This document shows positions 1,952 through 55,513 of a stretch of DNA of 64,000 bases, piece by piece (the stretch's first letter is position 1; each line of letters begins with the position of its first letter). The notes beneath the pieces were generated by a model. That model was not told where the DNA came from. It saw only the letters and a list, made by a program, of their open reading frames with translations, and searched no databases. The position numbers were made by a program, and so were the translations under genes. Source of the DNA: Segatella oris (GTDB lineage: Bacteria > Bacteroidota > Bacteroidia > Bacteroidales > Bacteroidaceae); assembly GCF_900637655.1 (NCBI RefSeq), contig NZ_LR134384.1, positions 930,001-994,000 on the forward strand. Direction: 5' to 3'.

Positions 1952-2170
1952 GGAGATTGCAGCACTCTGTTTGTCAATCAAATTCAAACAAGATTTGCAT
2001 TCGCCTCTCCAATTCTTTCTCTTTGCCGTGAGAGAAAACATACAAGCACTCTCCCTTTTCCATGTCTTGTTACGAGAAGCAATGCAATATAACTGTAAAT
2101 ACGTTGCAATCTGCGTCATATCACGCGCTAATATGCGTCAAGTTACGCGGTGATTTGATGCAAACTACAA
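1952..2170 (+). repeat. Class III repeat element: promoter-like block plus 22-bp array A
   Basis: The left block (from 1952) is homologous to the block at 18640. It carries TTTG (1994-1997), a 20-base spacer and TCTCTTTG (2018-2025), a decayed Bacteroidetes promoter, then a GAGAG/CTCTC hairpin. The array follows as four consecutive 22-base units starting at 2083, 2105, 2127 and 2149. Units 2 and 3 contain TGCGTCA cores, unit 4 TGATGCA. In each unit the register is GYAAnnTGnnnCAnnTTRC with substitutions. The element fills most of the gap between sulfatase and phosphatase. Short frames crossing it on both strands are by-products of the repeat. Confidence 0.75.
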
Positions 2171-2323
2171 ATAAGGGTGATTAGATTTTGAAAACAGCCT
2201 CATATAAGCCAAGGGACAACAAAAGGGTATTTCCCACATATCAATGTGCTATACAACCTGACAGGAATAAGTCAACACAAATTTGACGGATTTACAAATA
2301 CTTATAAATCCGTCAGACTTGCA

Positions 2324-3589
2324 CTATAATAGTGATTGGAGATAGCTGCGAAGTTCTTTCCAACGATAATAAGGAAAAATATCTGTATGCAAAGCAACAT
2401 GTGCCTCTTTTTCATTATGGAGGATTTTCACTAAGACGTCATTCTTTTTATTCTTATAAAAAATCAACTGTATGTTGCCTGCCATGGGTACAGCTTTGAA
2501 ATCACTCCAAACTTTATAGACCTCATAAGGATTACTTACAGAGGCATTAAAATTCTCGAGTTTGATTAGGGCCAACAGTGGAATGATGTTGCCGTCATGA
2601 CCAAATCGCAAAGTAGCAGCAATGTTCTTATTGACAATTGCTTCATCGGCGCTTTCTATAATGTTCTTCACCAAAGGAACAGCTTTCCGTGGACAGGCAC
2701 CTTTACCATCTGCATGGTTGGCACCATCAACGTAGAACTTATAGTTGATGACCTGCCACAGGTCGAACAACTCACGATTGGTCAGCACTTGAGGCAACTG
2801 AATAGCGGTATCAATGTCCTGCATGTCAACAACTATCCAATAGAGTCCCCACATGAGTTCGCTTGGATTTACTTTCTTCAACACGTAGGTGCTATCGCTA
2901 AAAAGTGACTGACACATACGTTCGGGGCGCGTTTGGGCGAGTGAGAACTTACGATATTCTTCCACCCAGGGGCCATGCTTACCATCAGCAAATGCATTGG
3001 AAGCTTTCGACTGCCAGTTCAAATATCTCACATATTTTTCACTGGCTTCAAGGTGCATGTCAAGTCCTGGTGACAATCCTTTGAGTTCATCGCAGAAAGC
3101 TGCCATGCTCATTGCACACCGCAAGGACATGGTAGATCTTGCAGAGACTTTCTTTGTTTTTCTAAAGACTTCTGGGTAATGGGTATACATTCTATACGCA
3201 ATCCCACGATGCTGACGCTCACCAACAAATGTAAGGTCTCCGCCTCTGCCCTCTACAATGGGCCACAACTCTTGGAGTTTAACAAGCAAATCACGCCCTA
3301 AATCTGTCAGCGCATGCTGATTATCAGCATCCTTGAGTAAATCTATAATCCATTTGTAATCTTTATCTCTCAAAAGAAAACGAGAACCATGCCGACCATA
3401 ATGACTGATGTAGAATGGCTGATAGCCCTTGGGAGCTGGAGTTTGATGATATTCTTCTACAGGATAAGTTAAGTAAACTCCTCCTGCCTTGGCAGGGGTA
3501 GCATCAATCTCCTCGAAAGAAGTTTGAGCCCAGGTCCCACCAAATGACAGGAGAAGCATGATGAGCAGGTATAATCTAATAGCCTTCAT
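2324..3589 (-). CDS. Secreted histidine acid phosphatase (clan 2, phytase/MINPP-like)
   Basis: A 421-residue exported phosphatase with a signal peptide (hydrophobic 5-17, cleavage near TWA-Q). The catalytic motif is R66-H67-G68-S69-R70, where His67 would be phosphorylated. A second Arg lies in the SARST region (about 151), and the proton donor pair is His331-Asp332 (RFGHDGN). Family members remove phosphate from phytate, inositol phosphates, sugar phosphates or phosphorylated proteins. The start overlaps the end of susD by 14 bases, so the two are almost surely one operon. That places phosphate removal at the heart of this uptake locus and hints at a phosphorylated substrate. Inositol phosphate is one possibility, but the HD pair alone does not decide it. 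Confidence 0.85.
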   Translation of the reverse strand: MKAIRLYLLIMLLLSFGGTWAQTSFEEIDATPAKAGGVYLTYPVEEYHQTPAPKGYQPFYISHYGRHGSRFLLRDKDYKWIIDLLKDADNQHALTDLGRDLLVKLQELWPIVEGRGGDLTFVGERQHRGIAYRMYTHYPEVFRKTKKVSARSTMSLRCAMSMAAFCDELKGLSPGLDMHLEASEKYVRYLNWQSKASNAFADGKHGPWVEEYRKFSLAQTRPERMCQSLFSDSTYVLKKVNPSELMWGLYWIVVDMQDIDTAIQLPQVLTNRELFDLWQVINYKFYVDGANHADGKGACPRKAVPLVKNIIESADEAIVNKNIAATLRFGHDGNIIPLLALIKLENFNASVSNPYEVYKVWSDFKAVPMAGNIQLIFYKNKKNDVLVKILHNEKEAHVALHTDIFPYYRWKELRSYLQSLL

Positions 3590-5264
3590 TCTGTTTCAAT
3601 GTTGGATTATTTGTAAGTTCAGTTTCCGGTATTGGGAACAAAACGTATTTATCATCAACATCTGCACCTTGCTGCTGAGCAGCCTTCCAATCCCAATTAT
3701 TCCCTTTTGTAAACTTACCGAATCGAATAAGATCAGTACGGCGTTGAAGTTCTGAAGCCAATTCACGCTGGCGTTCTGCAAGGATGAAGTCAAGTGTAAG
3801 CTGTGAAGCTGTAATATCACCATTCACATCAGATCTAACACCTGCTTTGGCATACTTACCGCTCATATATGCACGTTCACGGATTTCGTTCACATAGTTG
3901 AGAGCATCTGTCATTGAACCGCCTTGTGCCCCACGCAAGATAGCCTCTGCAGCAATGAGGTAAGCCTCGCCAGTACGGAACATAGGAAAATTAATGGATG
4001 TATAAGCTTCACCTTGAACAGGAGACATATTGTTCTTGGTAACATTGCGCCATTTGATATAGCCATAACCACATGTGAACGTACTTGTCATTGCGCCCTT
4101 ATTATCATAGGTTTCTTTCTTTTGATTAGGAAGTGCTGTCATGAACTGTGCACGCTTGTCCTTTTTCTGATTACCCCATATGTCAGCTTTGTCAAACGAG
4201 ACATCATCGGCATCAAACGCATCTACAAGAGTTGCTTTGGCACGTACATTACCCCAACCACGTGAACCGATACCTGTTTTATAAAGTTTATTCATCGGAC
4301 CATTTACAAAGGCCTTCACATAGAAGTTGGTTCCTGCAGAACTCTGCGCCTTCTGCCCATCTTGACAAAGTGGCCAGATTATTTCAGAACACTGGTCATT
4401 ATCAGCAAGGAAGATGTGGCGATAGTCTAGAGCCAGTGGATAACCACCTTCATTAATGACTTTCTTGGCATAAGCAAGAGCATCAGTATAACGGTTTGCA
4501 CCTATCCATGTCTGTGCATTGAGATACATTCTCGATAGCAGGAACCATGCTGCTACCTTGTCTATTCTGCCATATTCATTCCTGTGTGGTGCTTTCAAAT
4601 CAGCATCAATGGCCTTCAGTTCACTTTCAGCAAATTCAAAAATTTGTTTTCTCTGCCACTGTACAGGGATTTCCTTTACACCCGTGTTCTCATCAATATA
4701 AGGAACATTACCAAAAAGGTCGCACAAGGTTGCATAGCAGTAAGCCCGAATGAAACGAGCCTCAGCGCGATAGCTTGCATATTCACCTGACATTTTATCC
4801 CAGAGTCCACGCTTTTTCAGCTTATCCTCCGTACATTCACGCAATACTTCATTGCAATAGGCAATACTCATGTATAGGCGCTGATAGGTCCAAGTGACTA
4901 CAGGAGCATTGGAGGCATCCCATGACAGATTGAGCATTTTGCGAAGACCATTGGAAGAAGAAGGCATGAGAAAATTGTCGGTGTTCAGTTCCTGAAGATA
5001 GAACAACAGACGCACATACCCTGAATAGCCTTCGTTTGCACCTTGCAAATCGCCATCTCCTCCATCGCCGCCTTTCTGACCAGTTAGAATCATTGAGCCG
5101 TAACACTTTGCAAGCATACCGGCATATCCGTCTGTTGTGCTGTAGACTTCTTCGCTAACAATCTGGTTATCATCAAGTGGCATGGTGTTAAGATCATTGA
5201 AACATGATGTAAATCCTAAACAAAATAGGATTGATATGACTGCGATGATTTTATTCTTATTCAT
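3576..5264 (-). CDS. SusD/RagB-family outer-membrane substrate-binding lipoprotein
   Basis: A 562-residue SusD-like protein. The N-terminus has a lipoprotein signal with Cys21 (FTSC-FND), placing it on the outer-membrane surface. The body shows the family pattern of helical TPR-like units (AEARFIRAYCYATLCDLFGNVPY near 165-190) and a C-terminal block (RTGEAYLIAAEAILR, AERQRELASELQRRTDLIRFGKF) typical of RagB/SusD. It would bind an oligomeric ligand and form the lid over the SusC channel encoded just upstream, with 20 bases between the genes. Downstream it overlaps the phosphatase gene. The ligand is unknown. Confidence 0.95.
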   Translation of the reverse strand: MNKNKIIAVISILFCLGFTSCFNDLNTMPLDDNQIVSEEVYSTTDGYAGMLAKCYGSMILTGQKGGDGGDGDLQGANEGYSGYVRLLFYLQELNTDNFLMPSSSNGLRKMLNLSWDASNAPVVTWTYQRLYMSIAYCNEVLRECTEDKLKKRGLWDKMSGEYASYRAEARFIRAYCYATLCDLFGNVPYIDENTGVKEIPVQWQRKQIFEFAESELKAIDADLKAPHRNEYGRIDKVAAWFLLSRMYLNAQTWIGANRYTDALAYAKKVINEGGYPLALDYRHIFLADNDQCSEIIWPLCQDGQKAQSSAGTNFYVKAFVNGPMNKLYKTGIGSRGWGNVRAKATLVDAFDADDVSFDKADIWGNQKKDKRAQFMTALPNQKKETYDNKGAMTSTFTCGYGYIKWRNVTKNNMSPVQGEAYTSINFPMFRTGEAYLIAAEAILRGAQGGSMTDALNYVNEIRERAYMSGKYAKAGVRSDVNGDITASQLTLDFILAERQRELASELQRRTDLIRFGKFTKGNNWDWKAAQQQGADVDDKYVLFPIPETELTNNPTLKQNEGY

Positions 5265-5284
5265 AGTTATATATTCTTGGGTAA

Positions 5285-6670
5285 TTAGAAATTCAGATTC
5301 ACTGATAAAGAGAATGTGCGTGGACGCGGGTAGACATCACGGTCGATACCATTTGCCAACTCGGGATCGATACCCTTATAGCCTGTAAGCGTACAGACAT
5401 TCTGTATGGTAAAAGCCAAACGGAGATCAGACTTGTCGTTCCATAATTTCTTAAAGGTATATCCCAATGTAATGTTGTCTAAACGGAAGAAATCACCTTT
5501 TTCAAGGAAGTAATCTGAATAGAGCTGCTGTACATCAAAGCCCAAATCCCGAGTAGAAGGAAGAATGTTAGAGAAGCTTCCTTGGTCACTATACACCTGC
5601 TGCAAATATTGGTCAGCACGAATATAGTTATAAACATAAGCTCCGAAAGCACCATGAGCATTCAAACCCAAATACCAGTTCTTATAGTTCACATGAGTAT
5701 TAAAGCCTAAATATGCCTTGGGCAGTGCACTCTTGTCAGTAGCATAGCGAGTTTCTGTAGAGGATACTGAACCATCGGGCTGCACATATTTCCCCTCTAA
5801 AGGCTTACCGTTATTATCGTATGCCTGTTTGGCAAGATAGAAGGTATATGGACGTTTGTTTACCATGAATACTTGAACATACTTTCCTGTTCCTGAGATT
5901 GCACCCGTTTGAACGAAGTTAAACTCGGAATCAATGGTATTCAACTTCGTAATCTTAGAAGTGTTCCATGTATAGTTGAGTCCTAAATCCCAAGTAAGAT
6001 CTTTCGTGCGGATAGGTTGTGTATTGATAGAAAACTCTATACCTTTATTGTTCATCTCACCAATATTCGTAGTGAGAATAGAAGAGAAATTAGTTCCTGA
6101 AATCACGTTGATAGTATTCAAAAGGTCTGTTGTATAACGCTTATACAAATCAACAGTTCCATAGATTCGGTTATCCAAGAAACCATAGTCAAAACCTACA
6201 TTCCAAGTTGCTGTTGTTTCCCACTTGATATCTGTATCGTAAGTATTCGGACGATAAGTGCGATACCATTTGTCTCCAAAACGATAGCTTGCCTCAGGAT
6301 AAGAAATTGTAAAGGTGGTCATATAAGGATAGTCATTGAGGATATCCTGCTGACCAGTTTCACCATAACTCAGACGCAATTTCAAATTACTCAAGACACG
6401 GTTGTCCTTGAGAAAATCCTCACTGCCCACACGCCATGCCAATGCAACAGATGGGAAATAGCCCCAACGATTACCTTTTGCGAAACGTGATGATGCATCA
6501 GAACGTAAGGTGGCTGTTAACATATACTTTTCATCATAGGTGTAATTGACACGACCATATAAAGAAAGCAAGTAATATTCTGACTCATAATGCGATGGGG
6601 GAGAAAAGTTCTTTGCCTGAAGGTGAAAGTGTGGTATCATTGTATTTCTTCCAGAAATGCTGCCAACCAT
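5285..6670 (-). CDS. SusC-family TonB-dependent receptor, C-terminal fragment
   Basis: This frame encodes the C-terminal half of the SusC beta-barrel. Homology to SusC proteins begins at HYESEYYLLSLYGR (coding from about 6600 downward) and runs to a terminal beta-strand ending in Phe (VNLNF), as expected for an outer-membrane barrel recognised by BAM. Residues before HYES are an out-of-frame reading of the overlapping N-terminal fragment, so the ATG at 6670 is not a natural start. Joined with the upstream frame, the protein would be about 1,020 residues, a normal SusC length. As the sequence stands, this part has no credible start signal of its own. Confidence 0.85.
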   Translation of the reverse strand: MVGSISGRNTMIPHFHLQAKNFSPPSHYESEYYLLSLYGRVNYTYDEKYMLTATLRSDASSRFAKGNRWGYFPSVALAWRVGSEDFLKDNRVLSNLKLRLSYGETGQQDILNDYPYMTTFTISYPEASYRFGDKWYRTYRPNTYDTDIKWETTATWNVGFDYGFLDNRIYGTVDLYKRYTTDLLNTINVISGTNFSSILTTNIGEMNNKGIEFSINTQPIRTKDLTWDLGLNYTWNTSKITKLNTIDSEFNFVQTGAISGTGKYVQVFMVNKRPYTFYLAKQAYDNNGKPLEGKYVQPDGSVSSTETRYATDKSALPKAYLGFNTHVNYKNWYLGLNAHGAFGAYVYNYIRADQYLQQVYSDQGSFSNILPSTRDLGFDVQQLYSDYFLEKGDFFRLDNITLGYTFKKLWNDKSDLRLAFTIQNVCTLTGYKGIDPELANGIDRDVYPRPRTFSLSVNLNF

Positions 6671-8345
6671 AACCTACCATTGCACTGAAATCATGCTTCT
6701 TATCAAACACATGCCGATAATTGGCATAGAGGTCTAAAAGCGTGTTGCGCTTATTCTGCGTGCCATCATAATCTAAGCCTGTACCATCTTTCATGTTTGA
6801 GGTGTACATCATTCCTGCTTTATCTGGGACATCCTTGGTATAAATGCTTTTGAGAATATCAAAACCAAGGTTTGCGTTCAACTGTAAGTCTTCAAAACCA
6901 TGCACTTTATAATTTACCGTTGCATTACCAATCGCACGGGATAGCTTATTGTTGAACTTCTGCAGTTCAAGTTGGGCCACAGGATTATCAGTCTGAATAG
7001 CCATTGGAGAACTGCCATTCATCCAAATAAAATTTCCCAATCCAGGAGTGTTGCTACCTCTTGCTCCAGTCATAACCGGACGCGTTGGGTCATACCGCAA
7101 TGCATTATTTACAACATCGCCACTTACCATTGCATTATCTTCATACGAAGCCTTCAGCTTCAAACCAACGGTGAGATGATTATCAAAGAATGTAGGATTA
7201 ATACCACCATCAAACGTATAACGGCTATAGTGATTGGTTCTAATGATACCACTCTGGTTTGTATAACCTACAGAAACACGATACGGAGCTTTTTTCATCG
7301 CATTGCCTGAAAGCGAAACATTGTGCTCTGTACCAATAGCCGTACGGAAGATTTCATCTTGCCAATCAGTATTTGCAGTGCCAAATGAAACACCAGCAGG
7401 TACACCAGTTACTGTTGGCACAAAGCTACGAAACTCGTCAGCAGTCAGCGGAGTAAGACGCTTGGCAATAACACCCACAGAGACATTTCCGTTATAATTC
7501 ACCTTTATACCGCTTTCACTTCCCTTCTTGGTAGTAATCACAATTACACCATTCGAAGCTCGTGAACCATAAATAGCCGTAGCTGAAGCATCTTTCAATA
7601 CCGTGAATGTCTCTATATCATTAGGGTTGATACCACCCAAAACATTGCCTCCACCCTCAATTGTTGAATTATCAACAGGAACGCCATCAATAACAATCAA
7701 TGGGTCGTTGCTTGCAGAAAGCGAAGCACCACTACGTATTCTGATAGTAGAACCTGCTCCGGGGGCACCCGAATTTGTGATAACATTCACGCCAGCAATC
7801 TTACCCACAAGGGCCTCTTGAGCTGTATTCTGCACACCTTTATTAAGATCATCGCGATTGATTGCCGTTACAGAACCCGTAAGGTCTTTCTTTTTCACCT
7901 GACCATAACCAATCACTACAAGTTCGTTCAGCGTATTACTATCTTCGTCCAGTTTGAAGTTATAGCTACGCTGATTGCCTACCTTGAACTCCTGTTGATT
8001 ATAACCTACATAAGAGATTACGAGTATTGCACCATTAGGAACATCTAATTGGAAATTACCATCCATATCTGTAACAGTAGCAATAGTACTTCCTTTAACC
8101 ATTACCGTGGCACCAATGAGAGGCTCACCGTTGGCATCTGAGACTTTCCCATTGATTTTCTTGCCATCTTGGGCAGCAGCACACACAGAGGATAGGTTAC
8201 CATGTACATACCCCAAGGCAACTGCACTTGTAGGAGTAATGAGCAATCCTGCCATACATAGCAAATGGAACAAATATCCACTTTGCCAAATACAATTTGA
8301 TTTTCTCTTCATCATAGATTTAATATTAGTAGTATTCTCTTTCAT
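6585..8345 (-). CDS. SusC-family TonB-dependent receptor, N-terminal fragment
   Basis: The fragment has a long signal region, then a carboxypeptidase-regulatory-like domain (about 63-135, INGKVSDANGEPLIGATV), a TonB-box-like stretch (NELVVIGYGQ, about 138-148), the plug domain (LTGSVTAI through VIVITTKKG, about 155-270) and the first barrel strands. It stops at 6585 after reading KELFSPIAL, while the frame expected from the family continues as SP-SHYESEY. SusC imports glycans or other large ligands with TonB energy and pairs with SusD. Met1 lies about 31 bases from a good promoter; Met11/12 is another possible start. If the frameshift is real, no functional transporter is made. Confidence 0.88.
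   Translation of the reverse strand: MKENTTNIKSMMKRKSNCIWQSGYLFHLLCMAGLLITPTSAVALGYVHGNLSSVCAAAQDGKKINGKVSDANGEPLIGATVMVKGSTIATVTDMDGNFQLDVPNGAILVISYVGYNQQEFKVGNQRSYNFKLDEDSNTLNELVVIGYGQVKKKDLTGSVTAINRDDLNKGVQNTAQEALVGKIAGVNVITNSGAPGAGSTIRIRSGASLSASNDPLIVIDGVPVDNSTIEGGGNVLGGINPNDIETFTVLKDASATAIYGSRASNGVIVITTKKGSESGIKVNYNGNVSVGVIAKRLTPLTADEFRSFVPTVTGVPAGVSFGTANTDWQDEIFRTAIGTEHNVSLSGNAMKKAPYRVSVGYTNQSGIIRTNHYSRYTFDGGINPTFFDNHLTVGLKLKASYEDNAMVSGDVVNNALRYDPTRPVMTGARGSNTPGLGNFIWMNGSSPMAIQTDNPVAQLELQKFNNKLSRAIGNATVNYKVHGFEDLQLNANLGFDILKSIYTKDVPDKAGMMYTSNMKDGTGLDYDGTQNKRNTLLDLYANYRHVFDKKHDFSAMVGYGWQHFWKKYNDTTLSPSGKELFSPIAL
6597..6601 (-). other. Frameshift site in susC: run of five C (five G on plus strand)
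   Basis: On the coding strand the sequence reads TTCTCCCCCATCGCATTATGA. With five C the frame gives F-S-P-I-A-L-stop; with four C it gives F-S-P-S-H-Y-E and joins the two halves exactly. A single extra C therefore explains the split. A sequencing or assembly error in the homopolymer, a recent mutation, or slippage in the run are all possible. Confidence 0.85.
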
Positions 8346-8382
8346 TATTAGGTTACAGAGATTAGATTGTCTATCGTTGAGG

Positions 8383-8414
8383 CAAAATTACATTAAAATC
8401 TATTCACAGTCAAG
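8383..8414 (-). promoter_or_regulatory. Promoter of the susC-susD-phosphatase operon
   Basis: On the minus strand CTTG (8411-8414), a 20-base spacer and TAATTTTG (8383-8390) match the Bacteroidetes -33/-7 pattern. Transcription would start near 8376, about 30 bases before the susC ATG. Confidence 0.75.
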
Positions 8415-8520
8415 CAATATTCAAATAAAGTAAGTGTATTAGAGTTATATTATTATTGATAATCAATAACTTACAAGTTTTAAAGACAAAAGAAAAGTAA
8501 GTTTTAGGTAAGTATTATTA

Positions 8521-10152
8521 CTATAAAAGTTTTACTTTTTCAATCAATTCGTCACGAGAAATACCTATATGAGAACGCACCTTTTGGCGATAGTTGTATA
8601 CCGTTTGTTTGGAATAGCCAAGAAATGAAGATATACGGACACTATCAGTTATTCCTAAACGAACCAGCGCGTAAATCCTCAACTCAGGCGAAAGGATTTC
8701 ACCTTCCTTTGGTAAAAAGACTGTCCCATCAGTGATAAGACTGTTAAAGTCGGAAATAAAATTAGGAAATAGCTTTAAGAATATGGTATCGAAAAGACGA
8801 TAAAGATCTCTTTTATATTTTGATGCTACAGGTGATTCCAAGGTTATAAGTAACTCCTTTGTCTTATGCGTTTTCATTTTTGTGAGTAAACTAAGACGAT
8901 AGTTTTCCAAATCATTAATATATATCGAACAAATATTAAACAGTTGAGCAATATACTCTTCCTTGATATTGTTTTCTTCCTGAAGCTGATCATTTAACAA
9001 AGCAAGTTCCTTATTCTTAGCCTCTATAGAGACATCCTTTTCCTGTAGTTTCGTGTTTTTCGACTCCAGTTCATGACGCAAAACAGATAGTCTTCGATTC
9101 CGTCTTAGGATAAGCAATACCATAATCACTAACACCAAAAGAAAAGAAACAAGCGTTATTATATAAATGATAAATGTAGTGCGCTTCTCCTCAACCACTT
9201 TATCATGAGCAGCTGTAATAATTGGAAGAAAACTGGCAACATTGGTCAGTCTGCTCTTTGCTTTACTTTGCATGATATCATTCATGCAAACCATCATATA
9301 GCGATAGGCATGATCTATGTCTCCTCTTTCATAGAGCATTCTGGAAAGGTCCTGAAGGGCAGTATAACTCTTGTTTCCCGACAATTTATCAAGGATTGAA
9401 GCTTTTACAAGATACAGCATACCCTTATCTTTATATCCTGCTGCAGCATATACTTCAGAAGCCACAGCACACGCCGAAGCGTCATTCCAAATACTGTCAG
9501 GATGTTCCTTTTCATAATGACGAAACAGCTTTATCGCTTGATCATACTGTCCATCTAAACGTAAAATCATACTTTGATTACAGACATACATCATTGAATT
9601 TGGCTTCTCATATACAGCCATAGAATCTCTATACCGACGCTGCATAAGGCGATAAAACCTTTGTTCTTCGCTGCTCCTTCCCTCTTTCAGCAAAGAGAAA
9701 TAAATTCCATGAAGCATATTGTAATATTGTTTGCCATGCGTACGGATATAGTTTTTGTCCATGTTTTGTAAAATATTCAAGGCCTCATCGTACCTGGCGA
9801 GCTTTTTATAAGCATCAGCAACATTCAACATTGAACTTTGAATCTTCTCATCATCATCCATCTTCTTTGCCAACAACCAACCTTCTTTAGCATAAATATA
9901 CATTGAATCAAGATTACACTTTTTATACTGAAAGAAAAGGTCTAAACAAGACTTATACCTAATTTTGTCGTCCACGGCTTCATCAAACATCTTAAGCAAA
10001 TTCTCTATAGCTTTTCTATGCTGTTGTTCAATGACATCAGATTGCTCTATGGCATCATCAAGTTTATGTAGCAAAGCTTGTAAATCATGCTCTTCACAGA
10101 GCATTGGCAACGAAAACAGGCTACATATCACAGCAAGCAAAATCTTTTTCAT
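8521..10152 (-). CDS. DUF6377 family membrane-bound regulator with TPR-like sensor region
   Basis: The start chosen is the ATG at 10152 (MKKILLAVICSLF), because it gives a clean signal sequence; an in-frame ATG lies 10 codons upstream at 10182. In the longer numbering: helical TPR-like repeats fill about 50-330 outside the cytoplasm, a transmembrane helix spans about 334-358 (followed by RRNRR), a coiled coil spans about 365-405, and the C-terminus (RISSFLGYSKQTVYNYRQKVRSHIG) looks like a helix-turn-helix. This layout fits DUF6377 proteins, which sit next to SusC/SusD pairs in Bacteroidetes and are thought to act as their regulators. It lies directly upstream of susC on the same strand, and a class II repeat with promoter-like boxes precedes it. 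Confidence 0.8.
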   Translation of the reverse strand: MKKILLAVICSLFSLPMLCEEHDLQALLHKLDDAIEQSDVIEQQHRKAIENLLKMFDEAVDDKIRYKSCLDLFFQYKKCNLDSMYIYAKEGWLLAKKMDDDEKIQSSMLNVADAYKKLARYDEALNILQNMDKNYIRTHGKQYYNMLHGIYFSLLKEGRSSEEQRFYRLMQRRYRDSMAVYEKPNSMMYVCNQSMILRLDGQYDQAIKLFRHYEKEHPDSIWNDASACAVASEVYAAAGYKDKGMLYLVKASILDKLSGNKSYTALQDLSRMLYERGDIDHAYRYMMVCMNDIMQSKAKSRLTNVASFLPIITAAHDKVVEEKRTTFIIYIITLVSFLLVLVIMVLLILRRNRRLSVLRHELESKNTKLQEKDVSIEAKNKELALLNDQLQEENNIKEEYIAQLFNICSIYINDLENYRLSLLTKMKTHKTKELLITLESPVASKYKRDLYRLFDTIFLKLFPNFISDFNSLITDGTVFLPKEGEILSPELRIYALVRLGITDSVRISSFLGYSKQTVYNYRQKVRSHIGISRDELIEKVKLL

Positions 10153-10231
10153 TATCGTATTAGTGCTATTGAATTTTAACATAAGGTCGATAATTTACAA
10201 ATCCTTGCGGACTTAATATTAACGCAGATTG

Positions 10232-10239
10232 CAAAGATA
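10232..10239 (-). promoter_or_regulatory. -7 box upstream of the DUF6377 gene
   Basis: TATCTTTG on the minus strand is a perfect -7 element about 80 bases before the ATG at 10152. The -33 partner is weak. A second candidate, TAATTTTG (10284-10291), lies at the edge of the class II repeat. Confidence 0.45.
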
Positions 10240-10282: not shown

Positions 10283-10620
10283 ACAAAATTACAGAAATAT
10301 TCTGTATAAAAGACATCTTCAGCCATCTTTTTATTCCACAGCAAAATAAACATGTGCTCATCGGCAACGAAATACGTCATAACTAATATTACAAAACGCC
10401 ATGAAAAGGGGGAAAAGGAACCTTTCTGACAGGCTGCATCCACAGTGACAACAAACGGGAAAGAAAGCAGGAAGACTGGGGTTATCGTTCAATGGCAAAC
10501 ATCTCGATTTGCAACTCCATTCATATTATGCTGTAACTTGACGCAAAACACGTCGTAACTTGATGCAAATGACACCATAACTTGACGCAGATTGCAGTGT
10601 ATTCTGACGCAAATTACAAG
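10283..10620 (-). repeat. Class II repeat element: 22-bp array B plus promoter-bearing block
   Basis: Five 22-base units occupy 10511-10620, starting at 10511, 10533, 10555, 10577 and 10599. On the plus strand they read as variants of rTAACTTGACGCAAATnAC, the reverse complement of the register used elsewhere. On the minus strand the array is followed by a block of about 220 bases nearly colinear with 48829-49056. Shared words include CTGCTTTCTTTCCCGTTTG, TTTTCATGGCGTTTT and CTGTGGAATAAAAAGATG. The block ends in ACAGAA-TAT-TTCTGT, a perfect inverted repeat, followed at once by TAATTTTG. This end faces the DUF6377 gene, so the repeat may supply its promoter and an operator. Confidence 0.8.
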
Positions 10621-18639: not shown

Positions 18640-18868
18640 GGAGATTTGTTGTTTATTTTCACATTGGATTTGCATTCGCCTCTAAAATTCATTATCTTTG
18701 CCTTAGGGAAAGTGCACAAGTGCTTTCCCTTTTTTCATGTTTTGCAGCAAAGGCCTGTACAATAGGACGCATGTCTGCACGTAATCTGCATCATATTACA
18801 TGCTGATATGCCACAAAACACTGCGTCATATGACGCAAAACGCAAGACCATTTGATGGAGATGGCAAC
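18640..18868 (+). repeat. Class III repeat element: consensus promoter, hairpin and 22-bp array C
   Basis: The left block is homologous to that at 1952 (shared GATTTGCATTCGCCTCT, CTTTGCC, CAAG, TCCCTTTT, CATGT). It contains TTTG (18669-18672), a 20-base spacer and TATCTTTG (18693-18700), a perfect Bacteroidetes promoter. The expected start lies at the foot of an 8-bp stem (AGGGAAAG / CTTTCCCT, 18705-18730) followed by TTTTT, which looks like a terminator. The array follows in five 22-base units starting at 18759, 18781, 18803, 18825 and 18847; the last is degenerate. The element points at the 3' end of the convergent TlpA-like gene. Short frames running through it are shadows of the repeat. 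Confidence 0.8.
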
Positions 18869-27551: not shown

Positions 27552-28583
27552 ATGAAATACCGCTACGAGACAAACGATGATGCCACCTATCATCTGCTAC
27601 TTCAACAGGCGAAGCGAATGAGAAGTCAGCCAACGGAAGCAGAACGGACGCTGTGGAAATACCTAAAAGGCAATCAGTTGGGAGCACATTTCAGACAACA
27701 ACACCCTATGTTCGACTATATACCCGACTTCGTCTGCCTCTCCCGCAGGCTCATTATAGAGTTAGATGGCGACTATCATCTCACAGAAGAACAACAGAGA
27801 AAAGACGAAGAGCGAAGCCGATGGCTTGCCACCAAAGGCTTTACCGTATTGCGTTTCAGCAATGATGACGTCTTTTTAAGACTTCATTTCGTGTTAGATA
27901 AAATCAGAAACAAAATGAAAGAAAACGATAATATGCCCTCCGTTGACAACAAATCAGCAAGTCTTTCGCAAGCAGACACACCCTCCCTTTGGGAGGGAAG
28001 GGGTGGGTCTACGGGCAGACTCCTTATCTTCAGCGCTCCTTCGGGCTCTGGAAAGAGCACCATTGTGCAATGGCTGATGAAGGAACATCCCGAACTTAAC
28101 CTCCATTTCTCTATCTCCTGCACGAGCCGAGCACCGCGGGGAACGGAGCAGAATGGTGTGGAATACTTCTTCCTTACGCCTGAAGAATTCAAACAGAAGA
28201 TAGCAAACGGAGAGTTCTTGGAATATGAAGAAGTCTACAAAGACCGCTTCTATGGCACGCTGAAATCACAGGTTGAAGACCAGATTGAACGTGGAGAAAA
28301 CGTGGTTTTCGACGTTGATGTGAAAGGCGGATGCAACATCAAGCAGTTCTATGGCGACCGAGCGATGAGCATTTTCGTGCAACCTCCGTCGATAGAAGAG
28401 CTGCGCCGACGCCTCAACGGGCGTGGAACCGACCTCCCGGAAGTTATCGAACAACGCTTAGCCAAAGCTAATTACGAACTCTCTTTCGCACCGAAATTCG
28501 ACCGTATCGTTGTCAACGACGACCTCGAAACGGCCAAACAAGAGACGCACAAACTGCTCATTTCATTCCTGAACAACAGATAA
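27552..28583 (+). CDS. gmk: DUF559 nuclease-like domain fused to guanylate kinase
   Basis: A 343-residue fusion. Residues about 8-118 are a DUF559 domain with a restriction-endonuclease-like fold (PTEAERTLWKYLKG, IPDFVCLSRRLIIELDGDYH, KGFTVLRFSNDDV); Asp59, Glu70 and Asp72 fit a PD-(D/E)xK-type site. Residues about 156-343 are a complete guanylate kinase of normal length: P-loop SAPSGSGKST (161-170), then SCTSRAPRGTEQNGVEYFF and VVFDVDVKGG. GMK turns GMP into GDP and is normally essential and free-standing. The linker residues TPSLWEGRGG are encoded by a GC-rich repeat. In-frame ATGs at 27915 and 27933 could start a separate GMK, so a single fused product is not certain. Confidence 0.88.
   Translation: MKYRYETNDDATYHLLLQQAKRMRSQPTEAERTLWKYLKGNQLGAHFRQQHPMFDYIPDFVCLSRRLIIELDGDYHLTEEQQRKDEERSRWLATKGFTVLRFSNDDVFLRLHFVLDKIRNKMKENDNMPSVDNKSASLSQADTPSLWEGRGGSTGRLLIFSAPSGSGKSTIVQWLMKEHPELNLHFSISCTSRAPRGTEQNGVEYFFLTPEEFKQKIANGEFLEYEEVYKDRFYGTLKSQVEDQIERGENVVFDVDVKGGCNIKQFYGDRAMSIFVQPPSIEELRRRLNGRGTDLPEVIEQRLAKANYELSFAPKFDRIVVNDDLETAKQETHKLLISFLNNR
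27981..28008. repeat. GC-rich repeat inside the DUF559-gmk reading frame
   Basis: CCCTCCC-TTT-GGGAGGG followed by aaGGGGTGGGT matches the intergenic copies at 20672 and 27440. It is translated in frame as PSLWEGRGG and forms the domain linker. Confidence 0.7.
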
Positions 28584-29200: not shown

Positions 29201-29237
29201 GTTTCGTTCTCCCCTGAAACCTTTTCATGCATGAAAA

Positions 29238-29611
29238 CTGTCAACTTCCTTCCTTGTTTTTAACACTTTTCTCCACGACCAAACAGAAATGAAAATTCGC
29301 ATTCTGTGCTTATGCGAAGCCATTTTATGGTTTCGATACCCTCATTCCGGCCACCTTGAAATGCAGATAAGCCCTCCAAGCGTCGCAACTTGACGCATAT
29401 TGCACGGCTATCTGCATCATCTTAGGCCGTAATCTCATGCAGATTGCGTGGTAAAATGACTGAGATTGCATCGTTTCATCACGTGAATTTATGTCTTCAT
29501 TTGATTATAATCGCGTAATTATCTGACAGTCAATATATTGCAAAATGCGAAAAATCAGGGCGTATTCAGGCTGGAGTCGTCTCTCATTTCAAATACGCGA
29601 GTCTTGTAAAG
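29238..29611 (+). repeat. Class I repeat element with 22-bp array D
   Basis: The left block starts at CTGTCAACTTCCTTCCTTG, includes a hairpin (GAAGCCA / TGGTTTC, loop TTTTA) and ends at the array. Array units begin at 29384, 29406, 29428, 29450 and (degenerate) 29472, each 22 bases. The right block runs through TCTGACAGTCAATATATTGC to TTGTAAAG. By eye it is about nine-tenths identical, in inverse orientation, to 36411-36796 and more distantly similar to 55150-55513. It lies 37 bases past nadD, just after a perfect 16-base palindrome TTTTCATGCATGAAAA (29222-29237). The gap up to comM holds no gene. Confidence 0.85.
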
Positions 29612-29738
29612 GAATTTGTCATGATTTATGACATCTGTTAACATATATTCCGTTATGACGCATTTCGGTTTTTAAGCAGACTCCACGAGCAGTGTTCTTT
29701 CCTTTCAAGAGGGTTGTAGCGAATACTATTTTACACGC

Positions 29739-36243: not shown

Positions 36244-36410
36244 GTCTTCTGTGGTTTTCTTTCTGTCGGTTTAGGTTTTATTATAGGCTTGTTCGGAAAA
36301 TATAAAGTCACGAAAAGTCAGCCAGTCCACGCCATTCTTCGGCATGTTTCCTCTGACATTCCACCACGAAATCACAGGTAGCAGAAAATAGGTTAAATCT
36401 TTTGAACTAA

Positions 36411-36796
36411 CTTTACAATTGCCTTTGCACAACTTGAGAATTCAAAACAAAGCACCATTTCATTCCAAATACGCGCTGATTTTTTGCATTTTGCAATGCA
36501 CTGATTGTCAGATTGTTGCATGATTACAATCAAACGAAGACATAAAATCACGTGATGAAACGATGCAATCACAGTCATTTTACCATGCAATCTGCATGAG
36601 ATTACGGCCTAAGATGATGCAGATAGCCGTGCAATATGCGTCAAGTTGCGATGCTTGGAGAGCTTTTTTTCATTTTAAAGTGGCCGGAATGAGGGTATCT
36701 AAACCATAAAATGGCTTCGCATAAGCACAGAATGCAAATTTTCATTTCTGTTTGGTCGCGGAGAAAAGTGTTAAAAACAAGGAAGAAAGTTGACAG
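36411..36796 (-). repeat. Class I repeat element with 22-bp array E (inverted copy)
   Basis: Read on the minus strand from 36796, the left block (CTGTCAACTTTCTTCCTTG, then the GAAGCCA/TGGTTTA hairpin), the array and the right block follow the same order as at 29238. Array units on the plus strand start at 36563, 36585, 36607 and 36629, with a degenerate one at 36541. The end is CAATTGTAAAG complementary to 36411. Single-base differences from the copy at 29238 are scattered evenly, so both copies have aged together. The remaining parts of the 36184-36926 gap hold only the two promoters. Confidence 0.85.
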
Positions 36797-36842
36797 GAAA
36801 AGGGACAATCGTTATACGAAATTGCATTTTTCTTTCGCATAA

Positions 36843-47767: not shown

Positions 47768-47968
47768 CCGAGGCATGCTGCCCCTTACGGCTGCTATACC
47801 CAACTGAACCTGAAGTGTTTTCATGCCTCATTCGCAATCATGATTGACCGCAGAACCAACCCCTTTTTCTTCCAAATGCAGAACCGCCTCAACCTCTTTT
47901 TAACGCAATGATTATCAGATTGTTACGAAAGAAAAAGCAACATGCGGGCCAACTTGCATTTCCAAGCT

Positions 47969-48100
47969 TTGCAATCTGCGTCAAGTTACCGCGTGATTCG
48001 CGTCAAGTTATCCTGCAAAGTGACTCAAGTTACAGTGTAATCTGCGTCAAGTTGCCTTATAGTTTACATCAAGTTGCCCCACGATTAAATAGAGATTGTC
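47969..48100 (+). repeat. 22-bp array G (six units)
   Basis: Six consecutive 22-base units start at 47969, 47991, 48013, 48035, 48057 and 48079. The first five end in TCAAGTTRyC-type sequence; the sixth is decayed. Core triplet variants are TGCGTCA, CGCGTCA, TGACTCA and TACATCA. Upstream, AATGATTATCAGATTGTTACG resembles the inner block of the class I copy at 36490-36520, so this may be a remnant of a class I element. Confidence 0.85.
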
Positions 48101-48257
48101 ATATGATTGGGTATATATTGTTCTACGGATTATCTATTATTATACGATGATAACGAATACTGTGTTGTGCGATGAGTGCCATGCTAGGCTATCCCGACTT
48201 TCGTTCCTATGGATGACAATAGAGGTTATGTCGTACGATGAGGCATCTTTCATATAG

Positions 48258-48632
48258 TAACTGCATAGCAGTTATACTTTTGAAAGTGTGGTACGATGAC
48301 AGGCGAGATATGAGCCTGCAACGTAACTGCGTAGCAGTTATGCTTTTGAAAGCCCGTGGTTGGCGAGGAACGAGCCTACCTCGGGTGAATAATAACATGT
48401 GGTTTTCAAACCCGGTACGGGTTTTGCTTCTTCCAATGACGTGGTAGATAAGAAAAAGCTGAACCCGTTCCGGGTTCACTTCATGCGCCTATTCAATCCC
48501 CACGTAGGCTCACTTCGTTTGCCAACGTGGGGCTTTCAAGAGCACAACTCGTACCGAGTTGCAAATATGGAAAACGACAACATATATTACAAAAACAAGA
48601 CTTTCAAGAGGACAACTCATACCGAATTGTCC
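48258..48632. repeat. Cluster of seven short REP-like hairpins
   Basis: Seven palindromes of different sequence but similar design lie at 48258-48274, 48324-48340, 48408-48424, 48461-48477, 48498-48532, 48545-48561 and 48610-48632. Examples are TAACTGC-ATA-GCAGTTA, AAACCCG-GTA-CGGGTTT and CAACTCG-TAC-CGAGTTG. Most have a 6-7-bp stem and 3-base loop; the fifth has an 8-bp stem and longer loop. Several are preceded or followed by CTTTTGAAAG, GGTTTTCAAA or CTTTCAAGAG. They sit between two 22-bp arrays and look like an accumulation site for REP-type repeats. No transposase is nearby. Confidence 0.7.
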
Positions 48633-48718
48633 TTTCATATCGCTACTGTTACCTTACCACATGGTCATTATGATGAAACGATAGGAGAGGGATTATCACA
48701 CGATATAGTATAAATCGC

Positions 48719-49056
48719 GCGGTTATTTGAGTCATTTTGCGGTGTAAAGTGACTCAAGTTGCAGTGTAAAGTGACTCAAGTTACAGTGCAATTAGCGTCA
48801 AGTTGCAGCGTAATATGAATGGAGTTACAAATCAAGGTGTTGGACATTGAAAAACAAGCGCGGTCATCCTGCTTTCTTTCCCGTTTGTTGTCTGTGTGGA
48901 TACAGCCTGTCAGGAAGATTTCTTTTCTCCCTTTTCATGGCGTTTTATAATAGTGGTTATGCCGCTTTCCGTTGCCGATAAGCCCATGTTTCTCCTGCTG
49001 TGGAATAAAAAGATGACTGGAAATGTCTTTCATACAGAATATTTCCGTAACTTTGT
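48719..49056 (+). repeat. Class II repeat element: 22-bp array H plus promoter-bearing block
   Basis: Five 22-base units start at 48719, 48741, 48763, 48785 and 48807. Units 2 and 3 are nearly identical (GTGTAAAGTGACTCAAGTT). The block after the array (48829-49056) matches the minus-strand block at 10510-10283, ending in ACAGAATATTTCCGT and TAACTTTG (49048-49055), a -7 box pointing at the small gene at 49096. The last array unit (AATATGAATGGAGTT) is the best-conserved unit between the two class II copies. Confidence 0.8.
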
Positions 49057-49095
49057 AAATCATAAAATGAAAAGCTTACAGACTTATTTTCAGAC

Positions 49096-49296
49096 ATGGG
49101 AGAAAAGACATTAATTGACGACTACCGCGAACAAGTGAGGCAAATCATGCTGAAAGCAACCAAGGAAAACGGCGAACCGAAACTCACGGAGAAAGAAGTG
49201 AAAGACATCCTGACGTCGTTTTCTGATGAAGACTTAGCCTTTGGCATGCCTTTCAACACGCCCGAAGAGACGGCTGCCATGCTGCTTTCCGAATAA
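49096..49296 (+). CDS. Small acidic protein, unknown
   Basis: A 66-residue product rich in Glu and Lys, predicted mostly helical (TLIDDYREQVRQIMLKATKE, then LTEKEVKDILTSFSDEDLAFG). No signal or membrane segment and no family I recognise. In its favour are a -7 box (TAACTTTG, 49048-49055) about 40 bases upstream and a terminator-like hairpin after it. The promoter is part of a class II repeat. Confidence 0.6.
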   Translation: MGEKTLIDDYREQVRQIMLKATKENGEPKLTEKEVKDILTSFSDEDLAFGMPFNTPEETAAMLLSE

Positions 49297-49351
49297 AGTA
49301 AAGGCAGAAAGCCGGCCAACGGCAAGCAACACACCCTGCAAGAACAAAAAA

Positions 49352-49376
49352 ATCGGAGTAGATTTCTCACTCCGAT
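49352..49376 (+). terminator. Hairpin after the small gene
   Basis: ATCGGAGT / ACTCCGAT with a 9-base loop lies 55 bases after the stop; there is no long T run. The rest of the 49297-49784 stretch is AT-rich and holds no gene I can support. Confidence 0.55.
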
Positions 49377-49784
49377 ACTCATCGGTGGGACGCCTTTCAG
49401 CTTCCCACATACGCTTATTGACTAACTAACTTCAACCTGAAAATAATAACTAAAAACCTAAAACGTAATACGTTATCCTTTCAAACAATCTCTGTTTTTA
49501 CCTCAGACTAATCCTATGTTATTTCTTTATATCCTGAAAAATAATCTTTCGCTTACCTTAACTATACCTATGAGATGCTCTCTAATCAATCTTCTAAACC
49601 TAAAACCTATTGTCGTTTTGTGTCTGCGAAAATAGAAATAATTTCAAAAGAAAACCTCATCTGTTGCCAACTTCCATGAATTATACCGCGAATTTTTGAT
49701 GTAAATCAAGTGTCGTTCCCGTCTGACGGCATGATTTTCCCAAACATAATCTTTCTAAACTCCAAGCTATTCCTCTCGCCATTC

Positions 49785-49816
49785 CTTGCAGGAAATGTTT
49801 TTTTTGCGTATCTTTG
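49785..49816 (+). promoter_or_regulatory. Promoter of the GH2 gene
   Basis: CTTG (49785-49788), a 20-base spacer and TATCTTTG (49809-49816) lie 42 bases before the ATG. Confidence 0.8.
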
Positions 49817-49855
49817 TCCACATATCCATATACCCCAAAAACTTCAAACCATTAA

Positions 49856-53044
<3,189 letters not shown>

Positions 53045-53070
53045 CGCGTTTTATCCACCTTTTAACTCAT

Positions 53071-53108
53071 AAAATCCACCTCCACGGAGGTGGATTTTCT
53101 TATTTTTG
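53071..53108 (+). terminator. Terminator of GH2 gene overlapping promoter region of GH51 gene
   Basis: AAAATCCACCTCC / GGAGGTGGATTTT (53071-53098) is a near-perfect 28-base palindrome. TATTTTTG (53101-53108), a -7 box for the GH51 gene, begins two bases later, so the palindrome could also be an operator. Confidence 0.7.
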
Positions 53109-53146
53109 CACTCACAACACCACTGAAAGTATAACAAAAACCTAAT

Positions 53147-55105
53147 ATGAATACAAAGAAAATCCTATCGACTTTGCTGTTGACTGCACTGACTTCTGTC
53201 AGCATCAACGCACAACATCAGTTCACAATCAGCACAAAACCCGGTACAACCATACAGCCGACGATGTATGGTATCTTCTTCGAAGACATCAATTTCGGTG
53301 CCGATGGTGGCCTTTATGCCGAGATGGTAGAGAACCGTTCGTTTGAGTTTCCCGACCGATTAATGGGTTGGAACACCTTCGGTGATGTCACCGTGAGCGA
53401 TGTCAAGCCTGCTTTTGACCGCAATCCCCACTACGTAACATTGGCCAATGCGGGGCATCGTGAGAAACGGACGGGCCTTGAAAACCGCGGTTTCTTCGGC
53501 ATGGGACTGAAGAAAGGCATGCATTATGACTTTACGGTCTATGCCCGTTTGCACACCTTGCAAGGCAAAGAAGCCAAGTTCCGCATAGAACTTGTCGACG
53601 AAGAAGACCGTCCTATCAGCAAGGCTACGGTCACTGTGACGAGCAACAAATGGCAGAAACACACGGCAACGCTCACTTCTGACAAGACCATTGAAAAGGG
53701 ATTGCTCCGCATTTTCCTTGAAGGCAGCGAGAGTGTTGACATCGACCATGTGAGTCTTTTCCCTGCAGACAGCTGGCAAGGTATGCGTGCTGACCTCGTA
53801 AAAGACCTTGCCGACCTGCATCCGGGCATATTCCGTTTCCCCGGCGGTTGTATCGTTGAAGGCACCGATCTGGCTACACGTTATCAGTGGAAGAACACAG
53901 TTGGCCCTGCAGAAAACCGTCCGTTGAACGAGAACAGATGGAATTATACGTTCCCACATCGCATGTACCCGAATTATTATCAGACATTGGGTTTAGGCTT
54001 CTATGAGTTCTTCCTGCTCTCCGAAAAGATTGGAGCCGAACCGCTTCCTGTGCTGAGTTGCGGATTAGCCTGCCAATATCAGAACGACGACAACGACAAG
54101 AATGCGCACGTCTGCACCGCCGACCTGCAGCCTTATATCGATGATGCACTCGACCTCATTGAGTTTGCCAACGGTCCCGTTACGAGCAAATGGGGACGCC
54201 TGCGCGCCGATATGGGCCACCCGGCACCGTTCAATCTCAAGCAGATTGGTATTGGAAACGAACAGTGGGGCCCGCTTTATCCCGAACGATTAGCATTGTT
54301 TGTGAAGCAAATCCGCGCCAAATATCCTCATATCAAGATATGCGGCTCGTCTGGTCCTTCAGCAAGTGGCAAGGAGTTTGATTATGGTTGGGAGCAGATG
54401 CGCAGGCTCGGTGTAGACCTTGTTGACGAACATTATTACATGACTCCCGACTGGTTCCTGAAGAATGCAGGTCGTTATGACAACTATAACCGCACGGGAC
54501 CGAAGGTGTTTGCAGGCGAATATGCGGCTCATGTGCATGGACTTGACAAGCAACCGACTGTAGCTATGAACAATTTTGAAGCTGCTTTGTCTGAAGCGGC
54601 ATTCATGACAGGACTTGAACGCAATGCCGACGTGGTTTATCAAGCCACCTATGCGCCCCTCTTCGCACATGTTGAAGGCTGGCAATGGCGTCCCGATCTC
54701 ATCTGGTTCAACAATCTTGAGAGCGTGCGTTCAGTCAACTGGTATGTCCAAATGCTTTATGCCACGAACCGAGGCACCCATGTTTTGAGTCTCACCGAAG
54801 GCGGAAAGCCTGTCGAAGGCCATGAAAATCTCTACGCAAGTGCCGTGTACGACAAGACCGCCAAGGCCTACATCGTGAAGATTGTCAATGCCGGAGACAA
54901 GGAACAGCATATCAATCTCACCTTCACGGGCCTCAAAAATCTTGGCAAGGGCAAGCTTATCACACTGCACAGCAACGACCCTCGCGCAACGAACTCGTTG
55001 GAAAACAAGACCCATGTGGTGCCCCAGACTTCTGATGTCGAAGCTCATGGCAACATGCTTTCAGTAAAAGTGCCCGCCAAGACCTTTGCAGTATATCGGT
55101 TCTGA
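53147..55105 (+). CDS. GH51 alpha-L-arabinofuranosidase, exported
   Basis: A 652-residue GH51 enzyme with a signal peptide (cleavage near INA-Q, about 22). After a short N-terminal segment (MYGIFFEDINFGADGG) there is a carbohydrate-binding-like insert (about 75-205), then the TIM barrel: acid/base Glu372 in IGIGNEQWGP, nucleophile Glu458 in VFAGEYAAH. A C-terminal beta domain ends in KTFAVYRF. It releases terminal arabinofuranose. The gene follows the GH2 gene by 102 bases with its own -7 box. Confidence 0.94.
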   Translation: MNTKKILSTLLLTALTSVSINAQHQFTISTKPGTTIQPTMYGIFFEDINFGADGGLYAEMVENRSFEFPDRLMGWNTFGDVTVSDVKPAFDRNPHYVTLANAGHREKRTGLENRGFFGMGLKKGMHYDFTVYARLHTLQGKEAKFRIELVDEEDRPISKATVTVTSNKWQKHTATLTSDKTIEKGLLRIFLEGSESVDIDHVSLFPADSWQGMRADLVKDLADLHPGIFRFPGGCIVEGTDLATRYQWKNTVGPAENRPLNENRWNYTFPHRMYPNYYQTLGLGFYEFFLLSEKIGAEPLPVLSCGLACQYQNDDNDKNAHVCTADLQPYIDDALDLIEFANGPVTSKWGRLRADMGHPAPFNLKQIGIGNEQWGPLYPERLALFVKQIRAKYPHIKICGSSGPSASGKEFDYGWEQMRRLGVDLVDEHYYMTPDWFLKNAGRYDNYNRTGPKVFAGEYAAHVHGLDKQPTVAMNNFEAALSEAAFMTGLERNADVVYQATYAPLFAHVEGWQWRPDLIWFNNLESVRSVNWYVQMLYATNRGTHVLSLTEGGKPVEGHENLYASAVYDKTAKAYIVKIVNAGDKEQHINLTFTGLKNLGKGKLITLHSNDPRATNSLENKTHVVPQTSDVEAHGNMLSVKVPAKTFAVYRF

Positions 55106-55114
55106 AAACTTATC

Positions 55115-55141
55115 CCCTCCTCTTCTCAAGGAAGAGGAGGG
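55115..55141 (+). terminator. Terminator of the GH51 gene
   Basis: CCCTCCTCTTC / GAAGAGGAGGG, 11-bp perfect stem with loop TCAAG, 9 bases after the stop. No long T run. Confidence 0.7.
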
Positions 55142-55149
55142 CGTTTCGG

Positions 55150-55513
55150 CTGTCAATTTTCTTCCTTGTTTTTAACACTTTTCTCCACGGGCAAATAGAA
55201 ACGAAAACCTGTTTTTCATGCAAATGTGAAGTCATTCCATGGCTTCGATGTACTCGTTTCTGTCTCCAAGCTTTGCAATCTCAGTCACTTTACCATGCAA
55301 GATGACTGAGATTGTCTCGCTTTTCAAGTCAAAACACGTTGTAATCTGATGCAGATTACAACGCTTTCCAGCATGATTTCAGTCCGTTTTTCAACTTGAT
55401 TTCTGTAATCATCTGATTGTCAACACATTGCAAACTGTCCGAAAACGGCGCGTATTTGGAAAGAAAAAGACATTCGTTCTGAATTTGCAAAGCATTCAAA
55501 AGCAATTGTAAAG
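55150..55513 (+). repeat. Class I repeat element with 22-bp array F
   Basis: The third, most divergent class I copy: CTGTCAATTTTCTTCCTTG at the left and GCAATTGTAAAG at the right edge, as at 36411-36796. The hairpin here is GAAGTCA-TTCCA-TGGCTTC; compared with GAAGCCA-TTTTA-TGGTTTC at 29238 the arms change but still pair. Array units start at 55273, 55295, 55317, 55339 and 55361. The fourth contains a perfect palindrome, GTAATCTG-ATG-CAGATTAC. In the rest of the gap to enolase (55514-55936) I see only the hairpin at 55728. Confidence 0.82.

Follow-up and report, generated by a model that had tools for sequence, protein, structure and literature searches.

The intergenic regions of Segatella oris contain arrays of short units that repeat at exactly 22 bp and differ strongly from one another in sequence, which raises the question of what such arrays are and what they do. 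We examined a window of 64,000 nucleotides (NCBI RefSeq assembly GCF_900637655.1, contig NZ_LR134384.1, positions 930,001 to 994,000; window coordinates count from its first base), in which an original prediction made from the sequence alone had reported eight arrays. The arrays keep a strict period, are numerous in the part of the genome sampled, lie between genes and are evenly spaced along two genomes. Related lineages have their own array dialects, and the 22-bp register is kept between orthologous arrays. The arrays and their dialects suggest an unrecognised chromosome-wide binding system.

Eight arrays of 22-bp units in the window

Units at exactly 22 bp were found at all eight positions of the original prediction. 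A consensus-free detector (period 22, dyad on a base), which tests the agreement of alternating half-sites over four successive 22-bp units, returned exactly these eight places with scores of 73-99 bits. The next-best place in the window scored 54 bits, three shuffled windows gave at most 57 bits, and periods other than 22 gave at most 60 bits in the real window. In each unit, two half-sites of 8 bp in inverted orientation flank a centre of 3 bp, and a spacer of 3 bp follows. The arrays and the elements around them are as follows.

2084..2168, no strand assigned: 22-bp array of 4 units; the left flank of its element (1970-2027) resembles 18645-18702
10283..10510, minus strand: conserved flank, inverted relative to 48829-49056 (inverted repeat I2, which also takes in the array; 80% over 335 nt)
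10511..10617, minus strand: 22-bp array of 5 units
18759..18865, no strand assigned: 22-bp array of 4 strong units and 1 weak unit
29236..29679, plus strand: class A cassette, with a hairpin-bearing leader, an array of 5 x 22 bp and a hairpin-bearing tail
29385..29493, plus strand: 22-bp array in this class A cassette, 4 strong units and 1 weak unit
36346..36808, minus strand: class A cassette that matches 29238-29655 in inverted orientation (84%)
36541..36649, minus strand: 22-bp array in this class A cassette, 4 strong units and 1 weak unit
47971..48077, plus strand: 22-bp array of 5 units, with a weaker sixth unit up to ~48100
48700..48828, plus strand: 22-bp array of 6 units, with a conserved right flank at 48829-49056
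55140..55581, plus strand: class A cassette
55275..55381, plus strand: 22-bp array in this class A cassette, 4 strong units and 1 weak unit

All eight arrays are real, but not all are independent: the cassettes that contain 29384-29493 and 36541-36650 are inverted copies of each other (~420 bp, 84% alike).

Number, placement and spacing of the arrays

The survey was extended to a sample of 864 kb (27% of the S. oris genome), consisting of the window and 40 stretches of 20 kb at even intervals. In this sample, consensus words stood 22 bp apart 196 times, compared with 1-2 times in each of three simulations. A trained symmetric matrix detected 78 arrays, which together contain 373 units, whereas a single second-order simulation yielded none; four units were counted in 33 of the 78 arrays and five units in 32. 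The genome is estimated to hold ~273 sites from the 40 spread stretches, or ~285 when all 78 arrays are scaled, far more than the eight first noticed.

With the simple gene calls made for this analysis, 77 of the 78 arrays did not overlap a called gene. Among the 74 arrays with two neighbours, the gap was tandem for 43, convergent for 21 and divergent for 10, shares approximately proportional to the intergenic bases of each type. The 5th percentile of the distance from array to start codon was 126 bp, and no array polarity was found when the sequence halves were compared.

For the spacing tests, arrays less than 1.5 kb apart were merged into one site, in the nulls as in the data. In 464 contiguous kb of S. 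oris, 47-50 arrays were counted, a number that hardly depended on the threshold, and these formed 45 sites with a mean gap of 9.3 kb, a minimum gap of 3.2 kb and a coefficient of variation (CV) of 0.46. An equal number of sites placed randomly in called intergenic regions gave a CV of 0.76-0.77 +- 0.10, and in each of three nulls 0 of 20,000 simulations gave a CV as low as that observed (P<5e-5). Gaps below 3 kb were absent, against ~5 expected (P 0.002-0.003). The null should be conservative, because its intergenic regions are long partly as a result of holding arrays. The 40 spread stretches, 5 of which overlap the 464 kb, were also under-dispersed (index 0.51, P=0.004).

The same evenness was found in a congener, G004, whose arrays have the consensus GCAAAAnGCnGCnTTTTGC. 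Its 470 kb contained 52 arrays, 43 of them with exactly four units, which formed 51 sites with a mean gap of 8.9 kb and a CV of 0.46; in each of two nulls, 0 of 20,000 simulations were as even. Called intergenic regions contained 46 of the 51 sites.

Within the 464 kb of S. oris, the longest stretch free of arrays (28.8 kb, in a same-strand gene run at genome positions 1281368-1314147, loci L085-L086) was inspected through nine scanned proteins, whose domains include ketoacyl synthase, AMP-binding, MMPL and O-methyltransferase. We take this region to resemble an aryl-polyene-type cluster, and a foreign origin is not obvious from the nine proteins. The one protein scanned in a 28-kb gap of G004 is a BatD protein.

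An intergenic location would suit local gene regulation, with the arrays acting as operators, terminators or insulators between transcription units, and some arrays do adjoin promoter-like and terminator-like modules. However, the tandem, convergent and divergent contexts track intergenic length, the arrays stand back from start codons, and operators of neighbouring genes would not be even at 9 kb. We consider local regulation an improbable explanation.

Array dialects among relatives

When the S. oris array model was run against 40 relatives, matches were obtained in the congeners G001 (at least 53), G020 (at least 20), G004 (at least 16), G014 (at least 3) and G021 (at least 1). Since 113 candidates were scored per genome and the model represents one dialect, absence from other relatives means little. 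The consensus-free detector was also applied to the surroundings of yifB in 80 named Prevotellaceae loci, and 52 places in 38 loci reached at least 72 bits at period 22, which extends the arrays to related Prevotellaceae. At the same threshold, periods 19, 20, 23, 24 and 25 gave 0-1 places and period 21, at which codons interfere, gave 7. These counts exclude places above 72% A+T and masked runs of N (an uncleaned scan had counted N-runs in L129, L144 and L150), and the figure of 38 of 80 loci still includes a few near-identical tandem repeats. In 12 genomes of other families (166 kb readable), no place reached 60 bits, and ~18 would be expected at the density of S. oris.

The arrays of one locus resemble each other: the median score was 16.7 bits within a locus versus -2.0 between different loci, with an area under the curve of 0.88 (34 ordered pairs in 11 loci versus 2,222 different-locus pairs). 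This comparison started from 55 places of at least 68 bits, of which 48 were left after near-identical tandem repeats had been removed. Lineages have their own array dialects, and the 22-bp geometry is unchanged between them.

Further 22-bp array families were seen in the joined stretch of G023 (L103-L106, L229-L248), namely a GGTAAT-type at 209528, a similar GTAAT-type at 388102 and a CGATATAAAG-type at 366155.

Species dialects and even spacing would also be in keeping with marks of self-recognition similar to DNA uptake sequences or Chi, in which dense species-specific arrays separate own from foreign DNA. The known uptake and Chi marks each consist of one short word, whereas the arrays described here have several units in helical phase. 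The arrays also show no polarity between sequence halves, and self-recognition appears to us about as improbable as local regulation.

Conservation of the register in orthologous arrays

Six orthologous arrays were compared in four species pairs. The 22-bp register was kept in them, and their flanks accumulated up to 26 gap openings. The array shared by L157 and L164 was 82% identical with no gaps, and its left flank was 61% identical with 24 gaps. Four of the six arrays aligned free of gaps; the other two were aligned with 2 gaps, yet have four units at 22-bp steps. L157 and L164, the sole species pair with several arrays, share all three positions.

The original prediction had set neutral tandem duplication aside, and it is indeed not the main story. 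Adjacent units are slightly more similar than chance (z 4.5-6.6), which is the point in favour of a neutral minisatellite. Against it stand the narrow copy number, seen in the four-unit arrays of G004, the register kept in orthologues and the even spacing, and we regard a minisatellite as scarcely credible.

Symmetry within and between units

The arrays had been described as a palindromic 19-bp register with a 3-base spacer, and both parts of this description were refined. The centre of the unit is polar rather than palindromic (mostly TGAYGCA; TGACGCA or TGATGCA was the most frequent, in 151 of 373 units), and complementarity inside units was below chance in both the S. oris genome (z -5.2) and G004 (z -2.4). 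The spacer is present, but it is also a second dyad, and the half-sites therefore alternate every 11 bp. Half-sites vary independently, both of the partner in their own unit (identity z -1.2, pairing z -0.4) and of the neighbour beyond the spacer (z 0.0 and 1.7).

Given that half-sites vary independently, a hairpin RNA within units is not supported, and the covariation counts lend no support to a small RNA hairpin per unit (within-unit z -1.2; -5.2; -2.4). A structured non-coding RNA with rows of hairpins might still draw on other pairings: in the 43 four-unit arrays of G004, unit 1 is complementary to unit 2 more often than chance (z 5.8), as is unit 3 to unit 4 (z 2.6), and hairpin-like sequences occur in the leader and tail of the class A cassette. 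This explanation is opposed by the lack of covariation inside units, by the S. oris genome, in which no unit pair exceeded z 2.3 for complementarity (41 four-unit and 48 five-unit arrays), and by an Rfam scan of the window at the gathering threshold, which returned two tRNAs and no other match. We judge it very unlikely. A CRISPR array was rejected as well, as the units differ from each other and the spacer measures only 3 bp.

The class A cassette and the array flanks

In the S. oris genome, BLAST returned at least 56 matches to the class A cassette at E<=1 (40 of 156 candidates scored), and 23 of the 82 places in the sampled 864 kb reached the full cassette score (at least 140 bits). Alignment of 28 of 30 loci (L029 and L030 omitted), followed by removal of the chimeric L016 and L017, left 26 copies. 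No terminal inverted repeats were detected in these copies (best inverted identity 0.46 versus 0.43+-0.05 in shuffled sequence), and a miniature inverted-repeat transposable element (MITE) with such ends is therefore not supported. A direct motif, TTGTAAA-N14-TTTAAC, was present at both cassette ends in 18 of the 26 copies (at least 10 of 13 letters), the motif having been derived from the same 26 sequences. The cassette had no match in 29 relatives, including the array bearers G001 and G004, and none in phage and plasmid collections, by which a phage or plasmid origin was rejected. In G004, the flanks of 46 arrays carried 0.07-0.17 bit per column (22-column bins) versus 0.75-0.80 in the array. 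The G004 arrays stand alone without conserved flanks; the array rather than the cassette is the common unit.

These data bear on the possibility of a mobile or amplified repeat, in which arrays spread as cassettes and the exclusion of near copies, by target immunity or recombination loss, evens the spacing. The copy number of the cassette, the motif shared by its two ends and the longer repeated element in which the main-type arrays of G023 sit are consistent with such a process, as is the report that some rearrangements in Prevotella intermedia lie between copies of the PINSR repeat (PMC4755523; discussed below). The cassette lacks terminal inverted repeats and matches in relatives, phages and plasmids, however; the G004 arrays have no conserved flanks, and three of three positions are common to L157 and L164. 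Moreover, transposition alone does not explain the change of a dialect across a whole genome. We therefore consider a mobile repeat unlikely.

Several other sequences near arrays were recorded. In the window, ~600 bp (48101-48699) separate two arrays at one site, and the sequence at their left boundary is found again next to a different array at L016, which suggests that a small non-coding element may insert into arrays. At 1970-2075 and 18645-18755, a promoter-like sequence runs directly into a short terminator-like hairpin shortly before the array, and similar modules also adjoin arrays at L033, L036, L045, L053 and L069, among the places listed. A piece of the class A leader without an array lies at 60198-60288. 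Elsewhere in the window, one open frame (27552-28583) encodes a guanylate kinase with an N-terminal DUF559 domain.

Comparison with described repeats

The original prediction knew of no described family with these properties. The closest comparison is PINSR, presented in the consulted parts of its report (PMC4755523) as a 188-bp intergenic non-coding repeat of P. intermedia of unknown function, with 177 and 184 copies in two strains, about three quarters of the positions shared, no terminal inverted repeats and a copy downstream of tnaA. P. aurantiaca was tested there by PCR and is not listed as a carrier. PINSR resembles the S. oris arrays in being intergenic and of high copy number, and the 26 class A cassettes likewise have no terminal inverted repeats. 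Those parts of the report treat PINSR as the repeat of one clade and make no mention of a 22-bp period, even spacing, dialects elsewhere or a function.

An array element of P. aurantiaca provided the link. It matched at least 40 places in G099 (40 of 263 candidates scored), mostly over ~190 bp, and at least 40 places in the P. aurantiaca genome G352. The YifB protein of G099 is 97% identical to that of P. aurantiaca, and judged from its sequence G099 is probably P. intermedia or P. nigrescens. A 22-bp array of 96 bits lies in G099 (L262, 1131-1216) ~0.28 kb downstream of tnaA (ends 1492, minus strand), the place at which the intergenic position of P. aurantiaca-type elements was checked. Given the matches of ~190 bp in G099 and the array downstream of tnaA, PINSR is very probably a local form of the 22-bp array system. 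The P. aurantiaca element had no match in the S. oris genome at E 0.01 in a search without a positive control, as expected for another dialect; the S. oris arrays are thus like PINSR in build, with no sequence match through this element. The original remark that no described family comes to mind therefore does not quite hold. In a literature search whose scope left most subscription journals outside, no description of such an evenly spaced, dialect-bearing array system was found.

On contig C148 of G352, six consecutive copies of the P. aurantiaca element, among the matches listed, lie 2.9-4.0 kb apart between 41198 and 59021, hinting at an even but denser spacing.

BrickBuilt, a minisatellite-MITE of Porphyromonas gingivalis described in the consulted parts of PMC4596501, shares with the arrays an intergenic location, short tandem repeats between a leader and a tail, and several copies per genome. 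It differs in its 23-nt units, its 19 copies and its IS5-like terminal inverted repeats, whereas S. oris has 22-bp units, hundreds of copies and no such ends. Period 23 gave 1 place of at least 72 bits in the 80 named loci versus 52 at period 22, and GAGACC or GGTCTC occurred in 0 of 26 class A cassettes. Identity with BrickBuilt is ruled out by the period and by the ends, in which GAGACC-type repeats are absent.

Iterons of plasmid origins consist of several helically phased units of ~22 bp that are bound by a protein. The arrays differ from them in being hundreds of chromosomal sites with species dialects; no search for a Rep gene was made. DNA uptake sequences, Chi, matS, parS and the repetitive extragenic palindromic and bacterial interspersed mosaic elements (REP/BIME) are protein-recognised or intergenic motifs with many chromosomal copies. 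Each of them is a single short word, is limited to few sites or is a hairpin repeat, unlike the evenly spaced, multi-unit, 22-bp arrays of changing sequence described here.

Arrays as candidate binding sites along the chromosome

The conserved period and half-sites, the independent variation of half-sites, the survival of the period through sequence change and the register kept in orthologues make protein sites the best reading. Of the two possibilities originally offered, a dimeric protein or a row of RNA hairpins, the former thus remains, in dimeric or oligomeric form, and the latter is unsupported within units. The arrays are predicted to be protein sites on double-stranded DNA, which we consider probable. 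We infer binding by a dimeric protein from half-sites that are conserved pairwise and in helical phase although the sequence they spell differs from species to species. A role in chromosome organisation is less certain and is put forward tentatively, on the grounds that the sites are evenly spaced, occur regardless of gene orientation, keep their distance from start codons and show no polarity. Taken as a whole, the statement that the arrays are sites for a dimeric or oligomeric DNA-binding protein and form a chromosome-wide scaffold, most likely organising the chromosome, seems to us nearly, but not quite, an even call.

Under this reading, each array would be a cluster of mostly 8-10 half-sites for one dimeric or oligomeric protein, and with half-sites alternating every 11 bp, about one helical turn, the bound protein could line one face of the DNA. 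The ~270-285 arrays at ~9-kb intervals, in any gene orientation, would then make up the chromosome-wide scaffold, whose likely job may be to anchor loops or domains or to provide topological insulation. The specificity of the protein would drift between lineages and the array set of each genome would follow, giving dialects with a constant 22-bp geometry.

Several observations weigh against such a system. In G004, units 1 and 2 are near-perfect complements in 7 of 43 arrays, with 0.7 expected, and their complementarity, together with that of units 3 and 4, is not something that a plain operator model would predict. Part of the S. oris arrays lies in the amplified ~430-bp class A cassette, and copies could also be kept apart by selection against repeats that lie near one another. 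Spacing is not uniform among congeners: G001 has gaps averaging ~18 kb (8 gaps; one of its arrays, at position 79988, spans a two-contig join and has its units at the start of contig C11), and the main type of G023 amounts to eight sites in 480 kb, with gaps of 25-63 kb and one of 172 kb. No arrays were seen in samples of the congeners G010 (39 kb) and G018 (20 kb), and one doubtful place each was seen in G003 and G009 (40 kb each). For two of the six orthologous arrays, a flank was better conserved than the array itself, an array in L176 has no counterpart at threshold in L173, and S. oris lacks an array in a gap that several relatives use. Finally, the HU-HIG family (PF18291), considered as the array-binding protein, was rejected because its copy number does not track the arrays: 2 to 30 copies were found among the congeners searched, with no relation to arrays seen.

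A more specific form of the proposal, possible but in our view doubtful, is a lattice across the Prevotellaceae in which helically phased multi-dimer arrays every ~9 kb act as domain anchors or insulators, with a species-specific code whose hundreds of sites co-evolve with one protein. If true, this lattice would be a functional bacterial counterpart of eukaryotic insulator sites, and bacterial chromosomes would contain binding platforms in their hundreds, regularly placed and evolving together. Domains of bacterial chromosomes measure ~10 kb, and the arrays bear on how chromosomes are divided into such domains, as well as on the way in which a DNA-binding protein can alter its code although hundreds of sites have to change with it. 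On the strength of the 22-bp geometry, the regular spacing and the dialects of the lineages, PINSR would become part of a family-wide system, and its function would become testable.

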